A stretch of 52,564 nt of DNA from NCBI GenBank assembly GCA_937957975.1, contig CALFFK010000021.1, positions 1-52,564 on the forward strand, read 5' to 3'. Both the position numbers and the translations under genes were made by a program. Position 1 is the stretch's first letter. Every line of letters starts with the position of its first letter. The DNA is from an uncultured Neomegalonema sp. (GTDB lineage Bacteria; Pseudomonadota; Alphaproteobacteria; Rhodobacterales; Rhodobacteraceae). Shown piece after piece: positions 456-51,921 of this stretch. The notes under the pieces are model-generated. The model was not told the origin of the DNA. It worked only from the letters and a program-made list of their open reading frames with translations, and did not search any database.

Positions 456-950
456 GTGAAGAATATCATCCTTTCTGCTGTCGCGGCGGTTGCGCTATTC
501 GCAACACAGGCTTCGGCGCAGTCATATTTAAGCCCTTTCAGTGGCTATTCGAGCTATGGGTTCCGTTCGCCTTATGCCGCGAACGGACCTTATGTGCATA
601 TCGGATCTCTCGATTCGTTTAGCAGCTACAATAACTTCGGGTATGGCCGGGGTATCGTTGCGGCTGGCTATCGCACGCCGAGCTACAGCTATCCGACCAC
701 GTCGAACTATAGCTATCCAACCACGTTTGGTTCGAGCTATTCGTATCCGACCGCGTCGAGCTATAGCTATCCAACCACGATTGGTTCGACTTATTCGTAC
801 CCGACCACGTCGAGCTATAGCTATCCGACCACGTATTCGTATCCTACCACATCCAGTTACATCAGCCCTGCATCCTATCGTAGCGGCGTTGTATCGACCG
901 TGCCCTATTCTGGCGGATACTCCAGCTATTACAATGGCTGCCGCTGCTAG
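456..950 (+). CDS. Secreted Ser/Tyr/Pro/Thr-rich tandem-repeat protein
   Basis: I do not recognise a named family. The start is GTG at 456, preceded by AGGGAG at 442–447. It is chosen because the protein then opens with a clean Sec signal peptide: VKN, a hydrophobic run IILSAVAAVALFA, and cleavage near TQASA-Q. An in-frame ATG at 420 would put unsuitable residues before the signal. The mature part (about 142 aa) is almost entirely S, Y, P, T and G. It carries an 18-residue repeat built on SYSYPTT, followed by a Tyr/Gly tail ending NGCRC. Two cysteines in the last three residues could form an intermolecular disulfide or a surface attachment. Such composition suggests a disordered or fibrous extracellular or outer-surface protein. 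A Rho-independent terminator lies 96 nt downstream, so the gene is probably monocistronic. Confidence 0.7.
   Translation: MKNIILSAVAAVALFATQASAQSYLSPFSGYSSYGFRSPYAANGPYVHIGSLDSFSSYNNFGYGRGIVAAGYRTPSYSYPTTSNYSYPTTFGSSYSYPTASSYSYPTTIGSTYSYPTTSSYSYPTTYSYPTTSSYISPASYRSGVVSTVPYSGGYSSYYNGCRC
702..858 (+). repeat. 54-bp tandem repeat inside the secreted protein gene
   Basis: Two full copies (702–755 and 756–809) and a shortened third copy from 810 keep a 54-bp, 18-codon period. Each unit encodes two SYSYPT blocks separated by a short FGS/IGS spacer. The third copy lacks the spacer, so two YSYPTT blocks abut. Because the unit is a multiple of three, copy-number change by slippage would keep the frame. 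Other frames on both strands are also open across it, which makes misleading shadow ORFs. Confidence 0.85.
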
Positions 951-2343: not shown

Positions 2344-3867
2344 TCATAGTTTGCCATCAACCAGCGCTGCCCATTTGGCGAATAGATCGTCGATGTCGGT
2401 AAGCGTCTCCGCAAAGGCAGAGTCGAGTGACCGATCATCGGTGATGCGCGATGCTATATCCGTGATGCGGGGGGCGTCGATACAGACGCAGAGGGCAGCA
2501 TGTTCACCTACCGCAACCGGCTCTCCGATATGAACGATCCGCTGTCGGATGGTATCCGACGCCGCGCCGAGAGGCGACCGGAGCGCCCGGCACAGCTCTG
2601 CCGCCTGGGACATTGATAGCGGTGAACCATTGGGTCGGAGCGTAACGAGCGGCACAATGGATCGGGAGCGGGGCGTGCTGTCGTCTTTCTGAAAAAGTGG
2701 CGCGGCGAAGGGGGTGGTGCTTGCCCGTGCCAGAATCTCCGCCTCAAAACGAGCTATGATTGCCTCGGTGATGCCGGGGTCAACCCGGTCAAAGGCATCG
2801 AGTTCAGCCAATGCCGCGACCCATCGCAAAGGGACGCCGCCATTGTGGGGCAACATCCCGTCACACAGAGTATCGCGCAACGTCTTTGGCCAATCGTGGG
2901 CGGCACAATAATCGCGCAGACCCATCGGGAGAGGGGGAGCCGATTGCATGGCCGTTGCCAATGCGGGGGGCAGGATCATGGCCGCCGAAAAGGGCGGGCC
3001 ACCCGCGAAATTCGAGCCGCTGACGATGACTGCGAACCCGTTTTTGAGATCGATACGTACCTGCGCGGCATCGCAACGGAGCTGGCAGGCATCGACCACA
3101 CCATGAACCTGCCCCGGCGCGGCCTGCATCAATCGTTGCGCTGTGCCGCGTGTTGAAACCTGTAGGCCGGTTCTGGAGGTGTCGAGGACGTGCAACAGCA
3201 CGGTTCGGCCTTCCGAGAGGGCCATCCGGGTAAGGGCCGTAATTTCGGTATCGAGATCATCGCGGGAGCGGGCGGCCCCTTTGGGGGTGCGAATATCTAC
3301 GGTTTCGGTTCTGATGTCTGCCGCTTCCCACCCCGTAAGCCGTGTGCCCTTTTCGATCATCGCGCCAAGGCAGGTGCGGGCGCGGGAGTGTCGCCCGTCG
3401 CAAGCGACCATCACGTCGCTGCCACATTCTCCGGGGGCCATGACGATATTCGTGATCGGCGTGCCGGTTCCACGCTCGGTGACGGCAAGCATGAGTAATT
3501 CGGCATCCGTACCCGAAGAAGACAGGATCGTGGCGGAGCCTTCGATGCCCATTCGCGCCTGAATGCGGCTGCGGATGCTGCCACACAGGGCATTGAACCC
3601 TGCCTGACCCCAACGCCCGCCCTGTCCCAGTGTGGCCTCGATGTCCTGAAGTGCCTGCCAGCCGCGTGGCCCGATCCCCGTGGCGGTGGAGGAGGAGAAC
3701 CACACCTCATCCGGGGCTGGTACCGATGGTATTCCGTATGCATTCTGACCTGTCGCTCGATCACGATCCAGTCGCTCATCACCGGCTGAAACGATCCGGT
3801 CCGCCATTGCAATAATATGATCGCTTCGACGTTGGGTATACTGGATGGGGCTTTTTTTCAGCGACAC
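2344..3867 (-). CDS. PLP-dependent transferase-fold protein with Asn at the Schiff-base lysine position
   Basis: The fold is inferred to be the fold-type I PLP family (class V-like). SSSGTDAELL looks like the phosphate-binding turn, VVDACQLR supplies the aspartate that contacts the pyridine nitrogen, and GSNFAGGPPFSAAM sits where the family has GSKF-GGPPF with the PLP-binding lysine. Here that residue is Asn (codon AAT; plus-strand 3010–3012). If real, the protein cannot form the usual internal aldimine. The start is taken as GTG at 3867 because AAAGAGGAG lies 6 nt upstream; an ATG at 3891 in frame has no comparable site. The chosen protein is 507 aa. No metabolic neighbour indicates a substrate, and the gene converges on cobS. 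Confidence 0.55.
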   Translation of the reverse strand: MSLKKSPIQYTQRRSDHIIAMADRIVSAGDERLDRDRATGQNAYGIPSVPAPDEVWFSSSTATGIGPRGWQALQDIEATLGQGGRWGQAGFNALCGSIRSRIQARMGIEGSATILSSSGTDAELLMLAVTERGTGTPITNIVMAPGECGSDVMVACDGRHSRARTCLGAMIEKGTRLTGWEAADIRTETVDIRTPKGAARSRDDLDTEITALTRMALSEGRTVLLHVLDTSRTGLQVSTRGTAQRLMQAAPGQVHGVVDACQLRCDAAQVRIDLKNGFAVIVSGSNFAGGPPFSAAMILPPALATAMQSAPPLPMGLRDYCAAHDWPKTLRDTLCDGMLPHNGGVPLRWVAALAELDAFDRVDPGITEAIIARFEAEILARASTTPFAAPLFQKDDSTPRSRSIVPLVTLRPNGSPLSMSQAAELCRALRSPLGAASDTIRQRIVHIGEPVAVGEHAALCVCIDAPRITDIASRITDDRSLDSAFAETLTDIDDLFAKWAALVDGKL

Positions 3868-4063
3868 GGCGCACTCCTCTTTATGGCTCACCGATAGGAT
3901 GCCGTCGAAAGCTTACCAGATCGAATACAGGCGGAATTCCCAGACCCGCAAACGGGCTTTCCGCGACCGTCCGGGGCAAGGGTGTGGGGGCCATTAACCT
4001 AAAAACAAGGCGTATCCGGCAAATCTGGCACAATGCAGAATTTTTGAATGAAGGACCGATTCC

Positions 4064-32901: not shown

Positions 32902-33264
32902 GTGTCCCTCCCCCGTCCCGTTATCGCGACGAGAAGATGTACAGGAGAATTAATCGCACCGAAAGCCGGGAAAGGATTCATTCTATCTTGTTGCGTCGCT
33001 TGAAATGCGGCTGGAGGTCATTTGCTCTCTCTTCGTTGCCGTCATTTGCAATGGAGTCATCAACCACACCATGTGGGTTGTGGCCCACTCCACCGTGTAT
33101 GAAGAAACCTGTCGTCTCGACCATCATATGCTGTATTCCTGATTCTTGGAGATTATGCGCGGACGCGGCATCGATACCCATTGGGTTTCAAACGCCTCAT
33201 TCAGCGATATGCCCGTTCAGTTTTAGGCCTGGAGTGGCCCGGTTAATATAATGCGTGAGTGAAT
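32902..33264. other. 363-nt divergent intergenic region
   Basis: This lies between nrdR and the glycan cluster. I see no credible gene. It contains a short CCACA-CCA-TGTGG inverted repeat (33064–33076) and should hold the promoters for both directions, but no clear −35/−10 pair is evident. Confidence 0.45.
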
Positions 33265-34476
33265 ATGCGAATTCTGGTTGCCTACCGGCATTTCTGGCCC
33301 GACAGCCCGCCCTACTCGTCGATCCTGCGTAGCCTTGGGGCTGAATTGGTGAAGGATGGACATGACGTCTCTATTCTCGCTGAACAGCCATCGTATAAAT
33401 CGGTGGATCGTGAGAAGGCGGCTCCGGCATCTGAAACTTTCGAGGGGATGCAGGTCCGCCGTCTGGCAGGATTGCCCCTGCCCCGTACCCTGCGCTCGGC
33501 GTTGTTTCCGATTCGTGTGGTGCTGAACGCGGTTGGGCGACGGCTTCGCGGGGAACGGTATGACCTGATGTGGACCACGACTGTTCCGCCGGGCCTCAAC
33601 GGCCCCTGTGTGGCCCTGGCGGCGCGCATTCTGGGCGCGCGTTTCATGTATCATTTGCAGGATGTTTACCCCGATCTGGCCGGTTATGCGGGCGAATGGC
33701 GGCGCGGCAGCCCGGTTTATCGGCTCGTTGGCATGTTGGAGCGCCATGCCAGACGGCGCGCTGCCCGCTGTATCGTCCTGTCCGAAGATATGGCCGATAC
33801 ATTGGTCGAGAACGGAACCCCTCGCGAGAAGATCGTGATCGTGAACAACTTCATCGAGGAATTCCCCGATCCGGTTGCCCTGCCTCCTCAGGAACTAAGA
33901 CCCGCAGAAGGCACTTTCAGGGTGATCTTTGCGGGCAATATAGGCCGGTTTCAGGGGGTTGAGGCATTGGTCGATGCCGCCAGACTTCTCGAACACGAAC
34001 TCCCCGATGTCGAGATCATGTTGTTGGGAGAGGGCAGGGCCTTGCCCTCCCTGCGGGAACGCGGAGCAGGGTTGTCCAATCTGGTTTTCGCGCCGCACAT
34101 GCCTTTTGAACAGGCCCGCACGGTGATCGCGAGTGCTGATCTGGGGTTGGTCTCGCTGCGCCCCGGAATCTACCGCACGGCCTACCCGACGAAGGCTCTG
34201 GGTTATTTCGCTCTTGGCGTACCCGCATTGGCGGTGATGGAGCCTGAAAGCGCCATGGCGCGTCTGATCGTGGATGAGCGGGTCGGGGCCGTCGCGGAGG
34301 GTAATGACGGACCGGCCATCGCCGCCGCAATCCGGCGGATATACGCGGATCGGGCAGATATGCCCGCGATGCGTGAACGGGCGCTTGCGCTGTATGACGC
34401 TGAAATGTCCGAACGGGTATCAATGGAACGCTGGCGGGCGCTGATCGCGGAATTGGAGCGGGACAACCCCTCGTGA
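33265..34476 (+). CDS. GT4-family glycosyltransferase (WbuB-like)
   Basis: The 403-aa protein has the two-Rossmann (GT-B) layout: N-terminal MRILVAYRHFWPDSPPYSSI (WbuB-like acceptor domain), FMYHLQDVYPDLAGYAG, and C-terminal GT4 motifs FAGNIGRFQGVEALVDAARL and LGEGRALPSLRERG. It would transfer a sugar from a nucleotide donor to a lipid-linked glycan at the cytoplasmic face of the membrane. The ATG at 33265 is preferred over GTG 33259; neither has a strong ribosome site. It leads the glycan cluster and overlaps the next gene by GTGA. Confidence 0.88.
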   Translation: MRILVAYRHFWPDSPPYSSILRSLGAELVKDGHDVSILAEQPSYKSVDREKAAPASETFEGMQVRRLAGLPLPRTLRSALFPIRVVLNAVGRRLRGERYDLMWTTTVPPGLNGPCVALAARILGARFMYHLQDVYPDLAGYAGEWRRGSPVYRLVGMLERHARRRAARCIVLSEDMADTLVENGTPREKIVIVNNFIEEFPDPVALPPQELRPAEGTFRVIFAGNIGRFQGVEALVDAARLLEHELPDVEIMLLGEGRALPSLRERGAGLSNLVFAPHMPFEQARTVIASADLGLVSLRPGIYRTAYPTKALGYFALGVPALAVMEPESAMARLIVDERVGAVAEGNDGPAIAAAIRRIYADRADMPAMRERALALYDAEMSERVSMERWRALIAELERDNPS

Positions 34477-36437
34477 CCATCGAGCGCAGGGCATTGCTGG
34501 CGAGTGTGCTGGCAGGGGCCGCCCCTGCCGCGATGATGGCTAATCCCGATTTGTTGCGCCGTGCGCTTGTCTTGGAGGCCGCTGCCGCCGCGCCTGAATA
34601 TGATGCTGTGCCACTTCGGGCAGGGGCGGGATATCCAACACTGGCGCTGGCCAATGCGGCGGCGTCGCGAGGCGAAGTGGCGCAAGACTCTGTCATCACT
34701 GTCGAGGGCTTTACCCGGCCCGGTGATGGCGGTGGATTCGCGGGCGTCGTTGGCTCTCATGCGGTACCGGGCAACCCCGGTGGCGGCAGGGTCCATCCCC
34801 TTCCCCCCTACAATGTTCGCATGTGGGGGGCGTTGGGCGATGGAGAGACAGATGATTTTGCCGCCTGTCAGGCCGCCGCCAATGCATGCAGTTTTGTATC
34901 CAGCCAATCATCAGGCAAGCAATGGGGAGTCGCCGGACAAAACCTGATCTTCCCCCACGGCATCTACAATTTCGGTGATCGCCGCGTGGTCATGCCCAAT
35001 CAGGTTGACCCGGTGACGGGGCCGGGCGGCAATGTCGTCATCAAGCATGGCAGTTTTTTCTGGGAGACGACCTACGGCAATCACATCGCCGGATTCCAGT
35101 TCGTCGATCCGCCGGTGCGACGTGGAAAGGTTGCCCACATTGCCAATACCGCGCCTGTAACCGTCACTGCACCGGGGCATGGCTTCGCGGAAGGCGATTT
35201 CGTACGATTCCGGGGCGTGAACGGCATGACCGAGATCAATGGTCGTGGTTTTGTGGCGGTGAATGTGCAAACCGATGGCTTCACGCTCATGGATTCGGAC
35301 GGGGGCGCGTGGAGCACCTATACAGGTGGCGGAATGATGCATTCCGGCGCGGCGCTGGAATTCGATACAAACAATGTCAGCCGCTCAACCTTTACCGTGG
35401 ACCGGTGCAGTTGCTTTGGACAGGACGGCGGGGGGTACGCTTTCGTCTGCGCCCGTAATTACGGCGCGGCCCGGTCCACCGCTGTCACACTGCGCGATTG
35501 CGTCGCTGGCAGTATTGATCGCATCCTGCATGCACCGTGCGACAGCGTGCGGGTTGATGGCGGTTTCTATTGGCAGGGAACCTCGCAGGAGGCCGCATTC
35601 TATTCGCGGGGCATGACCAATGTGGACGGCGTGGTCATGGTCCCGCGCCATGCCGATCCCGGCTCACATTGGTGGGATTGGGACGTTATGCGCGAACCAT
35701 ACGGGGCCAATCAATGGACCGCGCGGGGGTGTCGTTTTTCAGGCGAGAAGGGCGGGATTACGGCCCTGCGCGTCCTGGCCAACGCGGGCGACCTTGGACA
35801 GCATCTCAATCCCGATGGCGTAGCTTTTGAGAATTGCTATATCGCCGCGCGCCGGGGGGGTGTCGCGGATAACAGTGGCGGAGTCGTCGTTCTGGGCCGG
35901 GAGGGGGATCGTCTGGCCACTCCGAATACGATCCGGTTCCACGGATGTGGTGTTAACCTGATGAACAGTTATTTCGTGCGCGGCGAGATCGACATCCCGA
36001 TCCGTCACCGAAAGAGCTATAATTTTCTCATCAGCATCGACGAAGCCACACGCCAGACCTTGGAACGCAACAATCAGGTTCATCCGGTGTCCGCCCCATT
36101 GCTTCCCTATCTCGACCGGACGACCCGCGCGACCCTCACGGGCCGCAGTCAGGTTGCCAGAGGTCGTAACGTGGCCACCCCCGATATTCTGCGCGGGGCG
36201 GTTATCGAATTGGCAGGCGTACCTTATGGGCGCGTTGTCGAGCGCATCGTCAACGCGAAACCCGGCGACCGGATAACCCTGCTTTCTGCTTTGGGAGACG
36301 ATGGTGGCTGGCGAGTTGTGAATGGCGGATCGTCGGGAATGCGCTTTCACTTGCGCGGCGGGCAGGATTTTACGGGGGAGGCAGGGTCGGTCCTCAATCT
36401 TGTGATTGATGCGGCGGGGGATGCCCGCGAAATATGA
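34473..36437 (+). CDS. Exported right-handed beta-helix (pectate-lyase-superfamily) protein
   Basis: The 654-aa protein starts at GTG 34473 within the glycosyltransferase stop. Its N-terminus IERRALLASVLAGAAPAA has a twin Arg and hydrophobic stretch like a Tat signal. The NVRMWGALGDGETDDFAA motif is the usual entry to pectate-lyase-superfamily beta-helix proteins, and the remainder is Gly- and Asn-rich short strands. Catalytic residues cannot be assigned. In an EPS cluster such a protein may trim, epimerise or bind the polymer outside the cell. Confidence 0.75.
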   Translation: MTIERRALLASVLAGAAPAAMMANPDLLRRALVLEAAAAAPEYDAVPLRAGAGYPTLALANAAASRGEVAQDSVITVEGFTRPGDGGGFAGVVGSHAVPGNPGGGRVHPLPPYNVRMWGALGDGETDDFAACQAAANACSFVSSQSSGKQWGVAGQNLIFPHGIYNFGDRRVVMPNQVDPVTGPGGNVVIKHGSFFWETTYGNHIAGFQFVDPPVRRGKVAHIANTAPVTVTAPGHGFAEGDFVRFRGVNGMTEINGRGFVAVNVQTDGFTLMDSDGGAWSTYTGGGMMHSGAALEFDTNNVSRSTFTVDRCSCFGQDGGGYAFVCARNYGAARSTAVTLRDCVAGSIDRILHAPCDSVRVDGGFYWQGTSQEAAFYSRGMTNVDGVVMVPRHADPGSHWWDWDVMREPYGANQWTARGCRFSGEKGGITALRVLANAGDLGQHLNPDGVAFENCYIAARRGGVADNSGGVVVLGREGDRLATPNTIRFHGCGVNLMNSYFVRGEIDIPIRHRKSYNFLISIDEATRQTLERNNQVHPVSAPLLPYLDRTTRATLTGRSQVARGRNVATPDILRGAVIELAGVPYGRVVERIVNAKPGDRITLLSALGDDGGWRVVNGGSSGMRFHLRGGQDFTGEAGSVLNLVIDAAGDAREI

Positions 36438-36587
36438 TGATGTGTCGGTGCGCTCTCCGCCATAATGATCCGGGCCTGTAGACGAAAATGGTCCGATCCT
36501 TTAGGATCAATTGCAGTAGAGTGGAGTACCGCTGCCTTGCGTGAACCGGCGGGCGGCGCAGAGGGTCTGTTGTATGGAAATTATCCG

Positions 36588-37478
36588 ATGAGTTCGCCGG
36601 AATCCGGGCCTGTTATCCTGATTGGAGCTGCCCGCTCTGGCACTAAATTCCTGCGAGATATTCTCAACGAGAGCGAGGCACTGGCACGCACGCCCTATGA
36701 TGCTAGTTATGTCTGGCGATATGGCAATGAGAACCGCCCTGACGATGCCTTCTCCCGCGAGGATGCGGGTGCGCGGGTGCGCGGGTTTGCCTTGCCAACC
36801 CTGCGCCGCATGGCGGGACTGGGCAAGACCGACGACCGGCGGCTGTTGGAAAAGACCGTGGGAAACGCCCTGCGGGTCAGCTTTGTGGATGAGATCCTGC
36901 CTGATGCGCGCTTTATCCATTTGATCCGCGATGGGCGGGCCGTAACGGAATCTGCGATGCGGATGTGGCAGGCTCCGCCGGACTGGAGCAGCCTGCGAAC
37001 CAAGCTGCGCAGCTTGCCACTTTCGAATGCAGGCTATGCCTTGTGGTTCGCGCGTAACTATGTCTCCGGCCTTCTGTCGGGGCGGAGCGGTGGCAAGGTT
37101 TGGGGGCCGCGTTATCCGGGCATGATGGAAGATGCTGTAAAGCTGTCACTGGAAGAAGTCTGCGCGAAACAATGGACTGAATCTGTGGCCAGCGCCCGCG
37201 TTCAACTCGCTGAACTCCCTGCGCAGCGGGTGCATACGGTGCGTTACGAAGACATGCTGGGCGATCCGGCATCCCTTGATGCGTTGCTTGATTTTCTTGC
37301 CCTGCCAGACGCTGACCGGGTGCGAACGGCCTTTGAAGCCAGGGCCGCGCGGGGTAATCTCGACAAATGGCAGGCGTCGCTCTCGCGCGAACAGGCCGAC
37401 ACGATCACGCGCATTGCCGAGCCGGAATTGACAGCTTTTGGTTATCCCCTGAGCGACAACACGGAAAATACCCCATGA
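36588..37478 (+). CDS. Sulfotransferase-family protein
   Basis: The 296-aa protein has the two PAPS-binding signatures: the 5'-phosphosulfate loop ILIGAARSGTKFL (residues about 10–22) and the 3'-phosphate region HLIRDGRAVTES (R114). This family moves sulfate from PAPS to hydroxyl or amino groups, which here would modify the cluster's glycan. GGAAA lies 8 nt before the ATG at 36588; the frame is open 41 codons upstream without a site. It overlaps the next gene by ATGA. No PAPS-synthesis gene is in the window. Confidence 0.8.
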   Translation: MSSPESGPVILIGAARSGTKFLRDILNESEALARTPYDASYVWRYGNENRPDDAFSREDAGARVRGFALPTLRRMAGLGKTDDRRLLEKTVGNALRVSFVDEILPDARFIHLIRDGRAVTESAMRMWQAPPDWSSLRTKLRSLPLSNAGYALWFARNYVSGLLSGRSGGKVWGPRYPGMMEDAVKLSLEEVCAKQWTESVASARVQLAELPAQRVHTVRYEDMLGDPASLDALLDFLALPDADRVRTAFEARAARGNLDKWQASLSREQADTITRIAEPELTAFGYPLSDNTENTP

Positions 37479-38635
37479 ATGAGCCGTTATCCGTTCCGTT
37501 CTTCCGCCCGTCCATCGGCGAGGAGGAGATTGCGGAAGTTGTCGAGTCCATCCGCAGCGGCTGGCTGACCACCGGGCCGAAGACCAGGCAATTCGAGGCC
37601 GATTTCGAGGCCTATATCGGCAATGATGTGCAGGCCGTCGCGGTCAACTCCGCCACTGCCGCGATGCATCTGGCGCTGGAGGCACTCGGCATCGGGCCGG
37701 GGGACGAGGTTATCCTGCCCACGCTGACCTTCACAGCAACCGCCGAAGTGGTGCGGTATATGGGGGCAACCCCGGTACTGGTGGATGTGGACCCGGCCAC
37801 GCTGAACCTGCGCCCTGAGGATGTTGAGGTGGCGATCACGCCGCGCACGAAAGCGGTGATGCCGGTTCATTTTGCGGGGCTACCCTGCGACATGACCCGT
37901 ATCCATGCGATTGCCCGCGCCCATGATCTGAAAGTGGTCGAAGACGCGGCCCATGCCCTGCCTACTGTCCATGCGGGCGGCATGATTGGAACGCATGGCA
38001 GTGATGCGGTGTGCTTCAGCTTCTATGCCAACAAGACGATGACCACAGGCGAAGGCGGGATGCTGGTTTCGACCAATGCGGCCCTGATCGACCGCGCCCG
38101 AAAGATGCGCCTTCACGGGATTGACCGGGATGTGTTCAACCGCTTTACGGATAACAAGGCTTCGTGGCGTTACGATGTCGTCGCGCCGGGCTTCAAATAC
38201 AACATGACCGATGTGGCGGCATCGCTGGGAATTCATCAGTTGCGCCGCTGCGACGGGTTTGGAGAAATTCGCACGGCGCGGGCGGCGCGGTATGACGCGG
38301 CTTTCGCTGACCTGCCCCTGATCCTGCCTCCCCATCCACCGGAGGGGGACAAGCACTCCTGGCATCTCTACATCGTGCGAATGTCGGATGACGCGCCAGT
38401 GGACCGCGACCAGTTCATCGCGGCCTTGCAGGAAGCGAATATCGGGATTTCGGTGCATTACACGCCGTTGCATCTGATGAGCTACTGGCGTGATCTGGGC
38501 AATTATTCGGAAGGCGCATTTCCGGGGGCCGAAGACATCTTCCGCCGTTGCGTGAGCCTGCCGCACTTCATGGCGATGACCGATGCGGAGCAAGACCGGG
38601 TAATCGAGGTCGTACGGACTGTACTGGGTGGATAA
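37475..38635 (+). CDS. DegT/DnrJ/EryC1 sugar aminotransferase
   Basis: The 386-aa protein has the family hallmarks: EDAAHALPTVHAGG with the cofactor-contacting Asp, K187 in FYANKTMTTGEGG as the PLP lysine, and a C-terminal GISVHYTPLHLMSYWRDLG. Such enzymes convert a 4-keto nucleotide sugar to a 4-amino sugar. In this cluster it points to an amino-sugar-containing glycan, as in bacillosamine-type pathways (PglE), but a dehydratase partner is not visible. It starts with ATGA overlapping the sulfotransferase. Confidence 0.92.
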   Translation: MNEPLSVPFFRPSIGEEEIAEVVESIRSGWLTTGPKTRQFEADFEAYIGNDVQAVAVNSATAAMHLALEALGIGPGDEVILPTLTFTATAEVVRYMGATPVLVDVDPATLNLRPEDVEVAITPRTKAVMPVHFAGLPCDMTRIHAIARAHDLKVVEDAAHALPTVHAGGMIGTHGSDAVCFSFYANKTMTTGEGGMLVSTNAALIDRARKMRLHGIDRDVFNRFTDNKASWRYDVVAPGFKYNMTDVAASLGIHQLRRCDGFGEIRTARAARYDAAFADLPLILPPHPPEGDKHSWHLYIVRMSDDAPVDRDQFIAALQEANIGISVHYTPLHLMSYWRDLGNYSEGAFPGAEDIFRRCVSLPHFMAMTDAEQDRVIEVVRTVLGG

Positions 38636-48673: not shown

Positions 48674-48841
48674 ATGACAATCGCCCTCGCAATCAATGCG
48701 CTCATGGTTATGACCGGTGCAGCCCTCTTTGGATGGCTCGTCCGCTGGAGCTCCGTTCAGGGCAGTGACCCTGTTGATCCGCGTGAATTGGCGCGCCGTG
48801 AAGCCGAACGCCGGGCTGCAGCGCAGGAGCAATCAGTATGA
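48674..48841 (+). CDS. 55-aa membrane peptide coupled to the HhH-repeat protein
   Basis: This short gene begins ATG ACA ATC with GGAGA about 8 nt upstream. The product has one hydrophobic segment (TIALAINALMVMTGAALFGW), then LVRWSS and a charged C-terminus rich in Arg, Glu and Ala. Its stop TGA overlaps the next ATG (ATGA), so it is co-translated with the 1027-aa protein. The segment GAALFGWLVRW matches GGALFGWLARW in that protein's own anchor, so the two may be paralogous anchors that pair in the membrane. No family is known to me. Confidence 0.75.
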   Translation: MTIALAINALMVMTGAALFGWLVRWSSVQGSDPVDPRELARREAERRAAAQEQSV

Positions 48842-51800
48842 AAACGCTATTGCTTTATCTTTTTCCGCTCCTGCTGATGCTGGGTGGTGCACTCTTCGGG
48901 TGGCTTGCGCGTTGGTATAAATATGGCGGGCGCTGCGGCAAAGGGGGCATTGCCGATGGCGTTCCGAATATTGATGCCCGGAGTGGAACCGTAAAACTGG
49001 ATGGTTCCGAGCCGGCAGTTGCCATGCAGGAACGCAAGGCAGGAGCCACCGCCAGTGGCCGTTCAGCCCTTGATTCGCTCAAGGCCGGGTATTTTGAAGG
49101 TAAGGTCAGCGGGGCGACGCCGGAAACCTCCGCCAGTGGTTCGAGTATGGCGAAAGTGGGTGCTGCGGTCGGCGGTGTGGCCGCAACAGTGGGGGCTGGC
49201 ATCGCCAGTGCGTCCAGCAGTGTGCGCGGCGCGGCGAACACTGCCACCGACAAGGCAAAATCGGGGCTTGCGTCGATCAAGGGCGGTTCTTCCGAAAGCA
49301 AGGTTGGCGGCGCAACGCCGGAAAGCCCTGCAAGTGGTTCGACCATGGCGAAAGTGGGCGCTGCTGTTGGCGGTGCGGCTGCAACAGTGGGGGCTGGCAT
49401 CGCCAGTGCGTCCAGCAGTGTGCGCGACGTGGCGAACACTGCCACCGACAAGGCAAAATCGGGGCTTGCGTCGATCAAGGACGGTTCTTCCGAAAGCAAG
49501 GTTTCAGGCGAACCTGCGGGTGGTCCTGCCACGACGACAAGTGGTGGAGCCGCCAGTGGTACAGCTCCTTCCGCAAAGGATGCGGGACCGGGTGGTGTCG
49601 CAAGCGGGAAATCGACCGAGGCGTCCATTTCAGGCGGATCAGCGGCAGAAAAGACCAGTGACGCACCCAAAGATGCGTCCTCGGTAGCCAAGAGCACCGC
49701 ACCGTATACTGCGGGTGGCGCAGGAGCCTCTGCCACGCCGACAAGTGGTGGAACCGCCAGTGGTACAGTTCCTTCCGCAAAGGATGTGGGACCGGGTGGT
49801 GTCGCAAGCGGGAAATCGACCGAGGCGTCCATTTCAGGCGGATCAGCGGCAGAAAAGACCGGTGACGTAACCAAAGATGCGTCCTCGGCGGCCAGGAGCA
49901 CCGCACCGTATACTGCGGGTGGCGCAGGAACCTCTGCCACGACGACAAGTGGTGGGGCCGCCAGTGGTACAGCTCCTTCCGCAAAGGATGCGGGACCGGG
50001 TGTGACCGGGACCACGAAACCAAAGACCGCTTCTGTCGAGGGTGGTGCTGCCAGTGCTGGAGGCATAACCGGGGACGGCACGGCCTCCAAAAAAGAAATT
50101 GACCCTGCTGACGGGGGCAAGACGTCCACGGATGCGAAAGGGGCGTCCTTCAAGGATGCCTCCGGTGATGCGAATACCAACAAGGCATCTGCCGTCCGCG
50201 ATTCGTCGCCGGATGCTGGAAGTCGCACGTCTGCCGGAAATATCGGTGCCGCTGTTGCGGTGGCCGGGGCCGCAGGTGTGGGTGCCGTTTCTGCCAATAC
50301 CGGACAGGCTACCGCGAGCGATCACACCCTTCCCGGTGCAACCATCGGACAGGAAGACGGACACATAGCCTCTGCGGATGAGAACATATCCTCTTCTGGT
50401 GCCGTTGGAATGAACGCCACCCTCTCCAGCAGCGAACGTGAGGCTCTGCGCCTTCTGGAAGGGGACGGAGAGTTGTCACGACCTTCGGTGGCCCTGATGT
50501 CGCCCCGTGTCGATCATACGCCTGACGATCTGACGAAAATCAACGGAATCGGTAAGGCAACCCAGCGCACCCTGAACGACGAAGGCATCTACTATTACGA
50601 TCAGATCGCCGAGTTCGATGCGCAGGACGTTGCCTGGGCTGACCGTAAAATCGACGGCGACGGCCGTGTCGTGAGTGACCGCTGGGTTCCCCAGGCGCGT
50701 GATCTTGCCGCGTCTGGTAATGCCGGAAGTTCGATGTCTGCCGATGTCGACGATTCTGCTGATGGCGGTGCCGTTGAATCCGAAGTGGACGTGCCGGATA
50801 CCCTCAGCGCCGAAGAACAGGAAGCACAGCGCCTGATCGATTCCGGTGCGGAGGTGAGCAAGCCCGCCACAGCACTGGCTGCGCCCCGCGCTGGTCGTTC
50901 GCCTGATGATCTGAAACGGATCAAGGGTATCGGTCCAAAGATCGAAACCACACTGAATGGCGAAGGCATCTATTACTATGACCAGATCGCTGAATTCGGT
51001 GGTCGGGACATAGCGTGGGCTGACAAGACACTGGCGATCAAGGGCCGCGTTGTCCGCGACCGTTGGGTTCCGCAAGCGAAAGGTCTGGCTTCTCTCGGCT
51101 CTGGTGGGGCGGATGCCGGAACCGGGGGCGCGATGCGCAGTCGTTTTGCCTCTCTCTCTGATGAGGCGGAAAGCGATGTAGCGGCGGGAAGCGGCATGGA
51201 TGCAGGGATGATCGATATCCCTGATAGCCTGAGTGCCGATGAGATCGAAGCGAATCGCCTTATCGAATCCGGTGAAACCATCGGCAAACCCCAAAACACG
51301 CTTGCTAAACCCGAAGAAGGTCGCGCTGTCGATGATCTGAAACTCATCAGCGGTATCGGGCCGAAGATCGAGGGGATGCTCAACGATGAGGGCGTCTACT
51401 ATTTCGATCAGATCGCTAATTTCGGAGCACGCGATCTCGCATGGGCCGACCAAACGCTTGGCTTCAAGGGCCGCGTTGTTCGTGATCGTTGGGTTCCCCA
51501 AGCGAGAGGATTGGTCGCACATCGTGACCGTATTGGTCTTGGTGCGACTGTCGGGAAGCCCAGTGCCGGGGCATCCGGTGGTTCTATCGCCAATATGCCA
51601 TTGAGTGCTGCCGAAGCCGAAGCCCTGCGACTGATCGAGCGAGATGGTGGATATGCGGCAACGTCACAGAACCGGCCTGAAGCTCTGGTGCGTGATGGCC
51701 CGGTCAGTGGCAAGCCCGATGACCTCAAACGGATCAAGGGAATTGGTGAAAAGCTGGAAACCGTGCTCAACAAAATGGGTGTCTATTATTTCCATCAGAT

Positions 51801-51921
51801 CGCTAATCTCTCTGCGAATGACATCGCGTGGGTTGATAGCAAGCTGAACTTCAAGGGTCGCGTTATCCGCGATCGTTGGATTCCGCAGGCCGAGAACTTC
51901 GCGAAGAACGGCAACGCCTGA
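48838..51921 (+). CDS. Membrane-anchored protein with repetitive linker and four HhH/H3TH-like domains
   Basis: The 1027-aa protein starts with one membrane segment (LLLYLFPLLLMLGGALFGWL) and then RWYKYGGR. Residues about 60–520 are Ala/Gly/Ser/Thr/Lys-rich, including two 66-aa repeats (89–220), then two-and-a-part 68-aa repeats (231 onward). From residue 562 come four copies of a ~60-aa module: (D)DLKRIKGIGPKIE, then YYYDQIAEF, AWAD and GRVVRDRWVPQA; they start near residues 562, 689, 831 and 960. The KGIG-type hairpin and following helices match the predicted 5' nuclease/H3TH group (COG3743) also seen as a tail on some NuoE proteins. DNA or RNA binding is an inference; a protein-scaffold role is possible. 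Confidence 0.85.
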   Translation: MKTLLLYLFPLLLMLGGALFGWLARWYKYGGRCGKGGIADGVPNIDARSGTVKLDGSEPAVAMQERKAGATASGRSALDSLKAGYFEGKVSGATPETSASGSSMAKVGAAVGGVAATVGAGIASASSSVRGAANTATDKAKSGLASIKGGSSESKVGGATPESPASGSTMAKVGAAVGGAAATVGAGIASASSSVRDVANTATDKAKSGLASIKDGSSESKVSGEPAGGPATTTSGGAASGTAPSAKDAGPGGVASGKSTEASISGGSAAEKTSDAPKDASSVAKSTAPYTAGGAGASATPTSGGTASGTVPSAKDVGPGGVASGKSTEASISGGSAAEKTGDVTKDASSAARSTAPYTAGGAGTSATTTSGGAASGTAPSAKDAGPGVTGTTKPKTASVEGGAASAGGITGDGTASKKEIDPADGGKTSTDAKGASFKDASGDANTNKASAVRDSSPDAGSRTSAGNIGAAVAVAGAAGVGAVSANTGQATASDHTLPGATIGQEDGHIASADENISSSGAVGMNATLSSSEREALRLLEGDGELSRPSVALMSPRVDHTPDDLTKINGIGKATQRTLNDEGIYYYDQIAEFDAQDVAWADRKIDGDGRVVSDRWVPQARDLAASGNAGSSMSADVDDSADGGAVESEVDVPDTLSAEEQEAQRLIDSGAEVSKPATALAAPRAGRSPDDLKRIKGIGPKIETTLNGEGIYYYDQIAEFGGRDIAWADKTLAIKGRVVRDRWVPQAKGLASLGSGGADAGTGGAMRSRFASLSDEAESDVAAGSGMDAGMIDIPDSLSADEIEANRLIESGETIGKPQNTLAKPEEGRAVDDLKLISGIGPKIEGMLNDEGVYYFDQIANFGARDLAWADQTLGFKGRVVRDRWVPQARGLVAHRDRIGLGATVGKPSAGASGGSIANMPLSAAEAEALRLIERDGGYAATSQNRPEALVRDGPVSGKPDDLKRIKGIGEKLETVLNKMGVYYFHQIANLSANDIAWVDSKLNFKGRVIRDRWIPQAENFAKNGNA
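49102..49497 (+). repeat. Two 198-bp tandem repeats in the linker
   Basis: Copies at 49102–49299 and 49300–49497 have an exact 198-bp (66-codon) period. Each encodes MAKVGAAVGG, then ASASSSVR and TATDKAKSGLASIK, an amphipathic helix pattern like LEA or phasin-type proteins. The copies are nearly identical at the DNA level, so the duplication is recent or maintained by gene conversion. Confidence 0.85.
49528..50010 (+). repeat. 204-bp tandem repeats (2.3 copies) in the linker
   Basis: Copies start at 49528, 49732 and (partial) 49936 with a 204-bp (68-codon) period. They encode SAKDAGPGGVASGKSTEASI followed by SGGSAAEKT and STAPYTAGGAG. This part lacks hydrophobic residues and is likely disordered. 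In-frame repeat units allow the tether length to vary. Confidence 0.85.

Follow-up and report, generated by a model that had tools for sequence, protein, structure and literature searches.

The gene at positions 456-950 of the window, by which we mean the whole 52,564-nucleotide stretch of DNA that was analysed, encodes a short Tyr-rich protein with a predicted export signal. It belongs to what is apparently a conserved, genus-restricted family of uncharacterised proteins, here named A1. The reading that we favour, at a probability of about 45%, is that the protein is an exported, intrinsically disordered Tyr-rich "sticker" of the envelope or extracellular matrix. It is favoured because an export signal is combined with the absence of a confident fold, dense Tyr with Ser/Thr/Gly/Pro spacers, and few Arg. 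The features of the gene and its surroundings are listed below.

2-313, + strand: 3' end of olsB (L-ornithine N-alpha-acyltransferase), truncated at the start of the window; NCBIfam NF052554, E 7e-15, a match to a fragment that lies below the whole-protein cut-off
314-455, + strand: leader with conserved blocks (ACAAAGTAA-like, GCGAATC-like and CAGTTAA), from an alignment of eight leaders
442-447, + strand: Shine-Dalgarno site AGGGAG, identical in 8/8 members
456-950, + strand: coding sequence, GTG start, 164 aa, dN/dS <0.3 where dS is computable
456-521, + strand: Sec signal peptide, residues 1-22, read by eye, with predicted cleavage between ASA and QS or one residue earlier; alignable in 8/8 members
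591-611, + strand: YVHIGSL box, residues 46-52; Y[VI][HN][IV]Gx[LI] in 8/8 members
657-677, + strand: first A-x-Y-R box (VAAGYRT), residues 68-74, from a pattern search
690-834, + strand: 54-nt (18-residue) tandem repeat array built on SYSYPTT, from Tandem Repeats Finder
861-884, + strand: second A-x-Y-R box (ISPASYRS), residues 136-143, from the alignment and a pattern search
936-947, + strand: C-terminal GCRC, residues 161-164; GC[RY]C end in 6/9 members
1046-1074, + strand: hairpin and T run, a probable terminator, from a hairpin scan; similar ones seen by eye in relatives
1268-2251, + strand: cobS, the downstream neighbour; TIGR01650, E 6e-170

The open reading frame is a real one, with a GTG start, 164 codons and a stop at 948-950. 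The mechanical list of open reading frames had used an earlier in-frame GTG at 366. Position 456 is nevertheless the conserved start, because a GTG at the equivalent position with AGGGAG just 5' of it is found in all eight complete members, our own included, and because in one of them (L002) the frame stays open for only nine further upstream codons (158 versus 149 residues). A search for CAGTTAATCAGGGAGT gave no match, because the window copy carries one extra base. On the 3' side of the gene, a hairpin and T run can be seen by eye in 8/8 members; the set terminator pattern matched none of the eight, the hairpins there being read by eye, and the terminator scan returned two overlapping sites against 1.2 expected, which by itself is not above chance. 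An antisense open reading frame (528-1007) and an overlapping one (541-957) appear to be Arg-rich shadows of the Ser/Tyr codons.

A TTAA-N7-TTAA palindrome, which we take to be the CtrA consensus, lies at 424-438, just 5' of the Shine-Dalgarno site. It is the sole copy in the window (0.14 expected; at least one copy in 13 of 100 shuffles) and is exact in six of the eight leaders. We make no claim of CtrA control, because the pattern is not enriched genome-wide (13 sites, whereas the control, the pattern reversed, has 26) and no motility or cell-cycle gene set was apparent by eye around the sites.

The encoded protein begins with MKNIILSAVAAVALFATQASAQ. Together, Ser, Tyr, Thr, Gly and Pro account for 74.7% of the 142 residues that come after it (24.6, 19.7, 11.3, 9.9 and 9.2%, respectively). 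The original prediction, which described the mature protein as nearly all Ser, Tyr, Pro, Thr and Gly, thus had the type of composition right and its extent slightly overstated. It had also called the protein secreted, of which the N-terminal signal peptide stands, export being predicted from sequence. As assessed by Tandem Repeats Finder, the array has a period of 54 with 2.7 copies and 90% matches. At the protein level, the self-identity of 0.31 at lag 18 was reached by 0 of 2000 same-residue shuffles at any lag from 2 to 30, and YSYP occurs seven times (shuffle mean 0.12, maximum 2 in 10,000 shuffles). The C terminus reads YNGCRC. The frame, the 18-residue repeat and the terminal CRC had all been read correctly from the outset. 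When the window protein was folded from its single sequence, the predicted structure was not confident, with a mean pLDDT of 40.3 and 147/164 residues below 50, which, coming from a single sequence, is weak evidence for disorder.

In its own genome (3.27 Mb, 125 contigs), the gene was the only match at E<=1 in a single-sequence search, and no second close copy was found. The same search matched 7/13 other genomes of the genus at E 4e-4 or better; one further match (G023, E 0.009), with four internal stops, was taken as chance. We built profile A1 from eight members, and eight complete members, with lengths from 149 to 180 aa, combine a profile match with a place between olsB and cobS. The profile also hit G002 at a contig edge (E 0.14), where a 43-residue open stretch ends in GCRC ~0.18 kb before cobS; owing to its place and its tail, this fragment was counted as a ninth holder. 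A1 is thus held by 9/14 genomes of the genus, our own included, and has no copy at the olsB/cobS place in G001, G004, G007, G011 and G012. In the own genome, the second profile match (E 0.29, model positions 1-55) falls within a 627-aa frame. An exported Tyr-rich protein in G001 (L019) matches the profile at E 2e-6 over positions 1-125. It was not counted as a member, because it carries an additional basic region and its contig differs from those of olsB and cobS in that genome; it may be a distant paralogue.

Beyond the genus, draws of 198 genomes from the family and 385 from the class, with a cut-off of E<=1e-4, returned the own genome alone. A further draw, of 394 family genomes with a cut-off of E<=0.001, gave matches in three others (E 3.5e-4, 4.6e-4 and 0.001); these weak matches were set aside as unrelated proteins with a signal peptide in common, one of them (L189) matching over model positions 1-104. 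The draws overlap. Plasmids, phages and viral contigs gave no match, and A1 was found in no named genome; these were weak tests, because BLAST was run with its low-complexity filter on and the patterns, including that used for the named genomes, came from the signal peptide only. The original prediction recognised no bacterial family, and curated collections agree. Pfam and NCBIfam held no family at E<=1 for the window protein; across the eight members, Pfam gave only LPAM_1 for one (E 0.011), and no member has a Cys near the signal peptide. Two of the four members tried against PHROGs matched phrog_22098 (E 0.023 and 0.026) over residues 1-24 only, and the single match among PDB chains had an E value of 0.43. 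Of the papers listed in literature searches, none dealt with the protein or the SYSYPTT repeat. A tree of cobS proteins with 110 rows groups all 14 genomes of the genus in a single clade (support 100/99). Its sister (97/83) is a 34-row clade that holds Paracoccaceae and Roseobacteraceae records and the nine other family genomes in the tree. From this tree, which covers one gene and so is no proof, we infer that the genus is a deep lineage of the Rhodobacteraceae in the broad sense.

Comparison of the members separates what is kept from what changes. The signal peptide and the Y[VI][HN][IV]Gx[LI] box are present in all eight complete members, as are one to three A-x-[YTA]-R boxes per member (set pattern). 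Tyr stands at 19.7-27.9% across the eight. After residue 22, Lys and Glu are absent from every one of them, and despite the range in length, six members have five Arg and one Asp, the other two (L007 and L008) having three Arg and no Asp. The repeat itself is not conserved, as its units differ between A1 species. The best lags elsewhere are 9 (L003), 17 (L007), 15 (L008) and 12 (L004), reached by 0, 5, 0 and 12 of 2000 shuffles, respectively; in L002, L005 and L006, periodicity is not clearly above that of shuffles (208, 445 and 120 of 2000). The idea of an SYSYPTT repeat protein therefore holds for the window species, the repeat there being real, and for no other member, since the 18-mer is confined to it. 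Likewise, the homologues sharing the same repeat that the original prediction proposed to look for did not turn up: relatives exist in the genus, but with other repeat units. As judged from these sequences, A1 is defined by its boxes and composition, not by the SYSYPTT repeat.

We estimated dN/dS by the Nei-Gojobori method over all aligned codons. Values were 0.16-0.29 in the seven comparisons with computable dS (own against L002, L003, L004, L005 and L006; L004-L006; L007-L008), and are rough, because dS is near saturation and the repeat alignment uncertain; dS was saturated for own against L007 and L008. In every comparison, pS exceeds pN. Together with the invariant Shine-Dalgarno site, these values point to a translated, selected protein, and argue for purifying selection while the repeat units turn over. 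They bear on two other explanations. That the gene is a chance open frame or a decaying orphan without function would fit its being an orphan outside the genus with fast repeat turnover, but we consider this most improbable in view of the excess of silent change, the ribosome-binding site, and the conserved boxes and charge counts. Indeed, the frame is intact in all eight complete members, and decay in close relatives was the very outcome that had been named beforehand as speaking against the original prediction. The other such outcome, assignment to a known family, did not come about in the collections searched. Alternatively, the protein might protect the cell surface from phages, predators or other cells as a decoy or shield, with repeats that turn over as its targets change. 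The differences in repeat units between closely related species are what such a role predicts, but amino-acid change never exceeds silent change where dS is computable and no defence or phage context was seen near the gene, in searches from which the padloc library was left out, making this very unlikely too.

The C terminus brings in a further alternative, a covalently cross-linked glue in which oxidation would turn Tyr into dityrosine or DOPA and the CxC of most members would join chains by disulphides or cysteinyl-dopa. High Tyr and the GC[RY]C end are in keeping with it, and polymerisation through cysteinyldopa is described for a synthetic mussel decapeptide that ends in Gly-Gly-Gly-Cys (PMC6282983). 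However, three of the nine members (L003, L004 and L006) end in PYSYWR, GYSYGW and GYRFGF, respectively, without Cys, so that a Cys end is dispensable there, and Pfam scans of part of the window's open reading frames made no oxidase apparent beside the gene. We regard a cross-linked glue as improbable.

The surroundings of the gene weigh on a different question, i.e. whether the protein leaves the cell. In 8/8 complete members, A1 directly follows olsB on the same strand at a distance of 133-186 bp (142 bp in the window), and cobS lies downstream of A1 in 9/9 members. Beside cobS in the window is a 515-aa open reading frame (2344-3891, - strand) for which neither Pfam nor NCBIfam offered a convincing family (best E 0.0025, below the cut-off). 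In the five genomes without A1, olsB and cobS are on different contigs. Four of these five have, directly behind olsB, a member of a second orphan exported family (A2), with the core QGYxPRE...APGYEYDxGG and no Pfam match (L143, 875-1366, - strand; L144, 1938-2423, + strand; L145, 1938-2375, + strand; L146, 1908-2336, + strand). A2 was found in none of the nine A1 holders, i.e. no genome has both, and G007 has neither behind olsB. Shared ancestry of A1 and A2 is unsupported at the profile level (hhalign probability 0.8% over 11 columns). Before cobS, four of the five genomes without A1 have a protein with, by eye, a J-domain-like end, and G001 has a glycine-zipper-like protein with TYG repeats. 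Exported Tyr-rich repeat proteins (L130, 3-1325; L019, L021, L023 and L040; with TYGTSQ, TYQQPSYQTP and other units) are also present in the genus, and in G001 one of them lies directly before cobS.

The strongest rival explanation draws on this neighbourhood. It holds that A1 is a periplasm-retained protein tied to OlsB, a flexible Tyr-rich chain that stays in the cell and lines the periplasm or the outer membrane in an envelope with ornithine lipids. The constant place behind olsB and its occupation by an unrelated exported protein where A1 is missing both speak for it. So does the export route, as none across the outer membrane was identified, for which reason the protein may remain periplasmic. 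However, the five genomes without A1 form one clade on the cobS tree (100/100), so that the exchange of A1 and A2 may be a single replacement; G007 breaks the pattern; the conserved leader may hold its own promoter; and neighbourhood alone is weak evidence of function. On balance, we think this explanation unlikely, if worth keeping in mind. A bolder proposal joins the two lines. The place next to olsB would hold interchangeable exported disordered proteins (A1 or A2) working with the ornithine-lipid envelope, and A1, a stand-alone chain of stickers and spacers, would amount to a minimal Tyr-based adhesive or condensate of bacteria. Selection would fix its composition, its charge count and a few of its boxes, and would leave the repeat sequence free to change. 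We put this forward as a speculation that is more probably wrong than right by a wide measure.

According to the sticker reading, the chain would stay unfolded after crossing the inner membrane. Weak multivalent contacts made by its many Tyr and few Arg (Tyr-Tyr, Tyr-Arg and Tyr-sugar) would lead to condensation, gelling or coating of a surface, and the protein would serve at the cell surface or in a biofilm matrix. Selection would hold composition and spacing rather than exact repeats, and the terminal CxC could pair chains by disulphides in most members. Because composition is conserved and the order of the repeats is not, overall stickiness rather than a precise fold may be what is selected, and repeat periods that differ between species are to be expected if composition, and not register, matters. 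Points against the sticker reading include that only two of the five Arg of the window protein sit inside A-x-Y-R boxes, that the Cys end is absent from three of the nine members, and that no route across the outer membrane was identified. If the reading is true, A1 is a very small natural bacterial protein, known from nine sequenced species, whose repeats turn over against a maintained composition. These species could then be compared to learn which features of exported condensing or adhesive proteins matter, be it Tyr count, Arg count, spacing or the terminal CxC, and an orphan family of a sister lineage of Rhodobacteraceae-type bacteria would gain a testable function. Should A1 instead prove to be a filler of the periplasm, it would count as an ordinary orphan of its lineage.

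Two other regions of the window deserve mention. A 1027-aa protein (48838-51921, + strand) has a long Ala/Gly/Ser/Lys-rich stretch and, by eye, four helix-hairpin-helix units (DDLxxIxGIG...YYxxQIA); Pfam HHH_5 matches the whole protein at E 7e-12, with no single stretch passing. At 33259-38635 (+ strand), a glycosyltransferase stands in a row with a 654-aa protein whose E1_FCCH match is odd, a sulfotransferase and a DegT-type aminotransferase; the set looks like a surface-polysaccharide cluster.

Among known systems, RTX and other type I secreted adhesins have Gly/Asp-rich nonapeptide repeats and no N-terminal signal peptide. A1 differs on both counts, its mature parts having no or one Asp and its N-terminal signal peptide being found in 8/8 members. 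The resemblance to adhesive, fibre or gel-forming proteins noted originally holds at the level of composition, which is of the adhesive or gel-forming type. A parallel in idea, not in sequence, is mussel foot protein 1 (Mefp-1), with the decapeptide AKPSYPPTYK (PMC6282983). Both are exported proteins with Tyr-rich repeats containing Ser, Pro and Thr (SYPPT in Mefp-1, SYPTT in the window protein). However, Mefp-1 is an animal protein with Lys in every unit, whereas the mature parts of A1 have no Lys in 8/8 members, and the A1 repeats are built on an 18-residue SYSYPTT unit or on others, not on a decapeptide. Brosi_A1236, an anammox matrix protein, is bacterial and extracellular like the predicted A1, with a repeat-containing, disordered Ser/Thr/Gly-rich region; such Thr/Ser/Gly-rich regions are reported to bind each other, a precedent for the sticker reading (PMC7482068). 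It is a ~1551-aa S-layer-type protein enriched in Thr, Ser and Gly, whereas the window protein has 164 aa and Tyr enrichment is a feature of A1. The anionic domain of LbpB from Moraxella bovis is another exported bacterial low-complexity chain, reported to phase-separate (PMC11022072), but it is anionic and part of a larger protein, whereas A1 has no Glu and at most one Asp. None of the searches run found a relationship between the window protein and Mefp-1, Brosi_A1236 or LbpB, and the composition and low predicted confidence of A1 are compatible, and only compatible, with phase-separating matrix proteins. Nearer by, four proteins of the same genus (L019, L021, L023 and L040) have signal-peptide-like starts and Tyr-rich repeats (TYTTPTY, TYGTP and SYQTP). 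They match A1 weakly (E 2e-6, 0.014, 0.001 and 0.7, respectively), are positioned elsewhere, and in two cases have further segments that set them apart from A1, by eye a basic helical end in L019 and a glycine-zipper-like segment in L021. The function presumed for A1 belongs to a known general kind.
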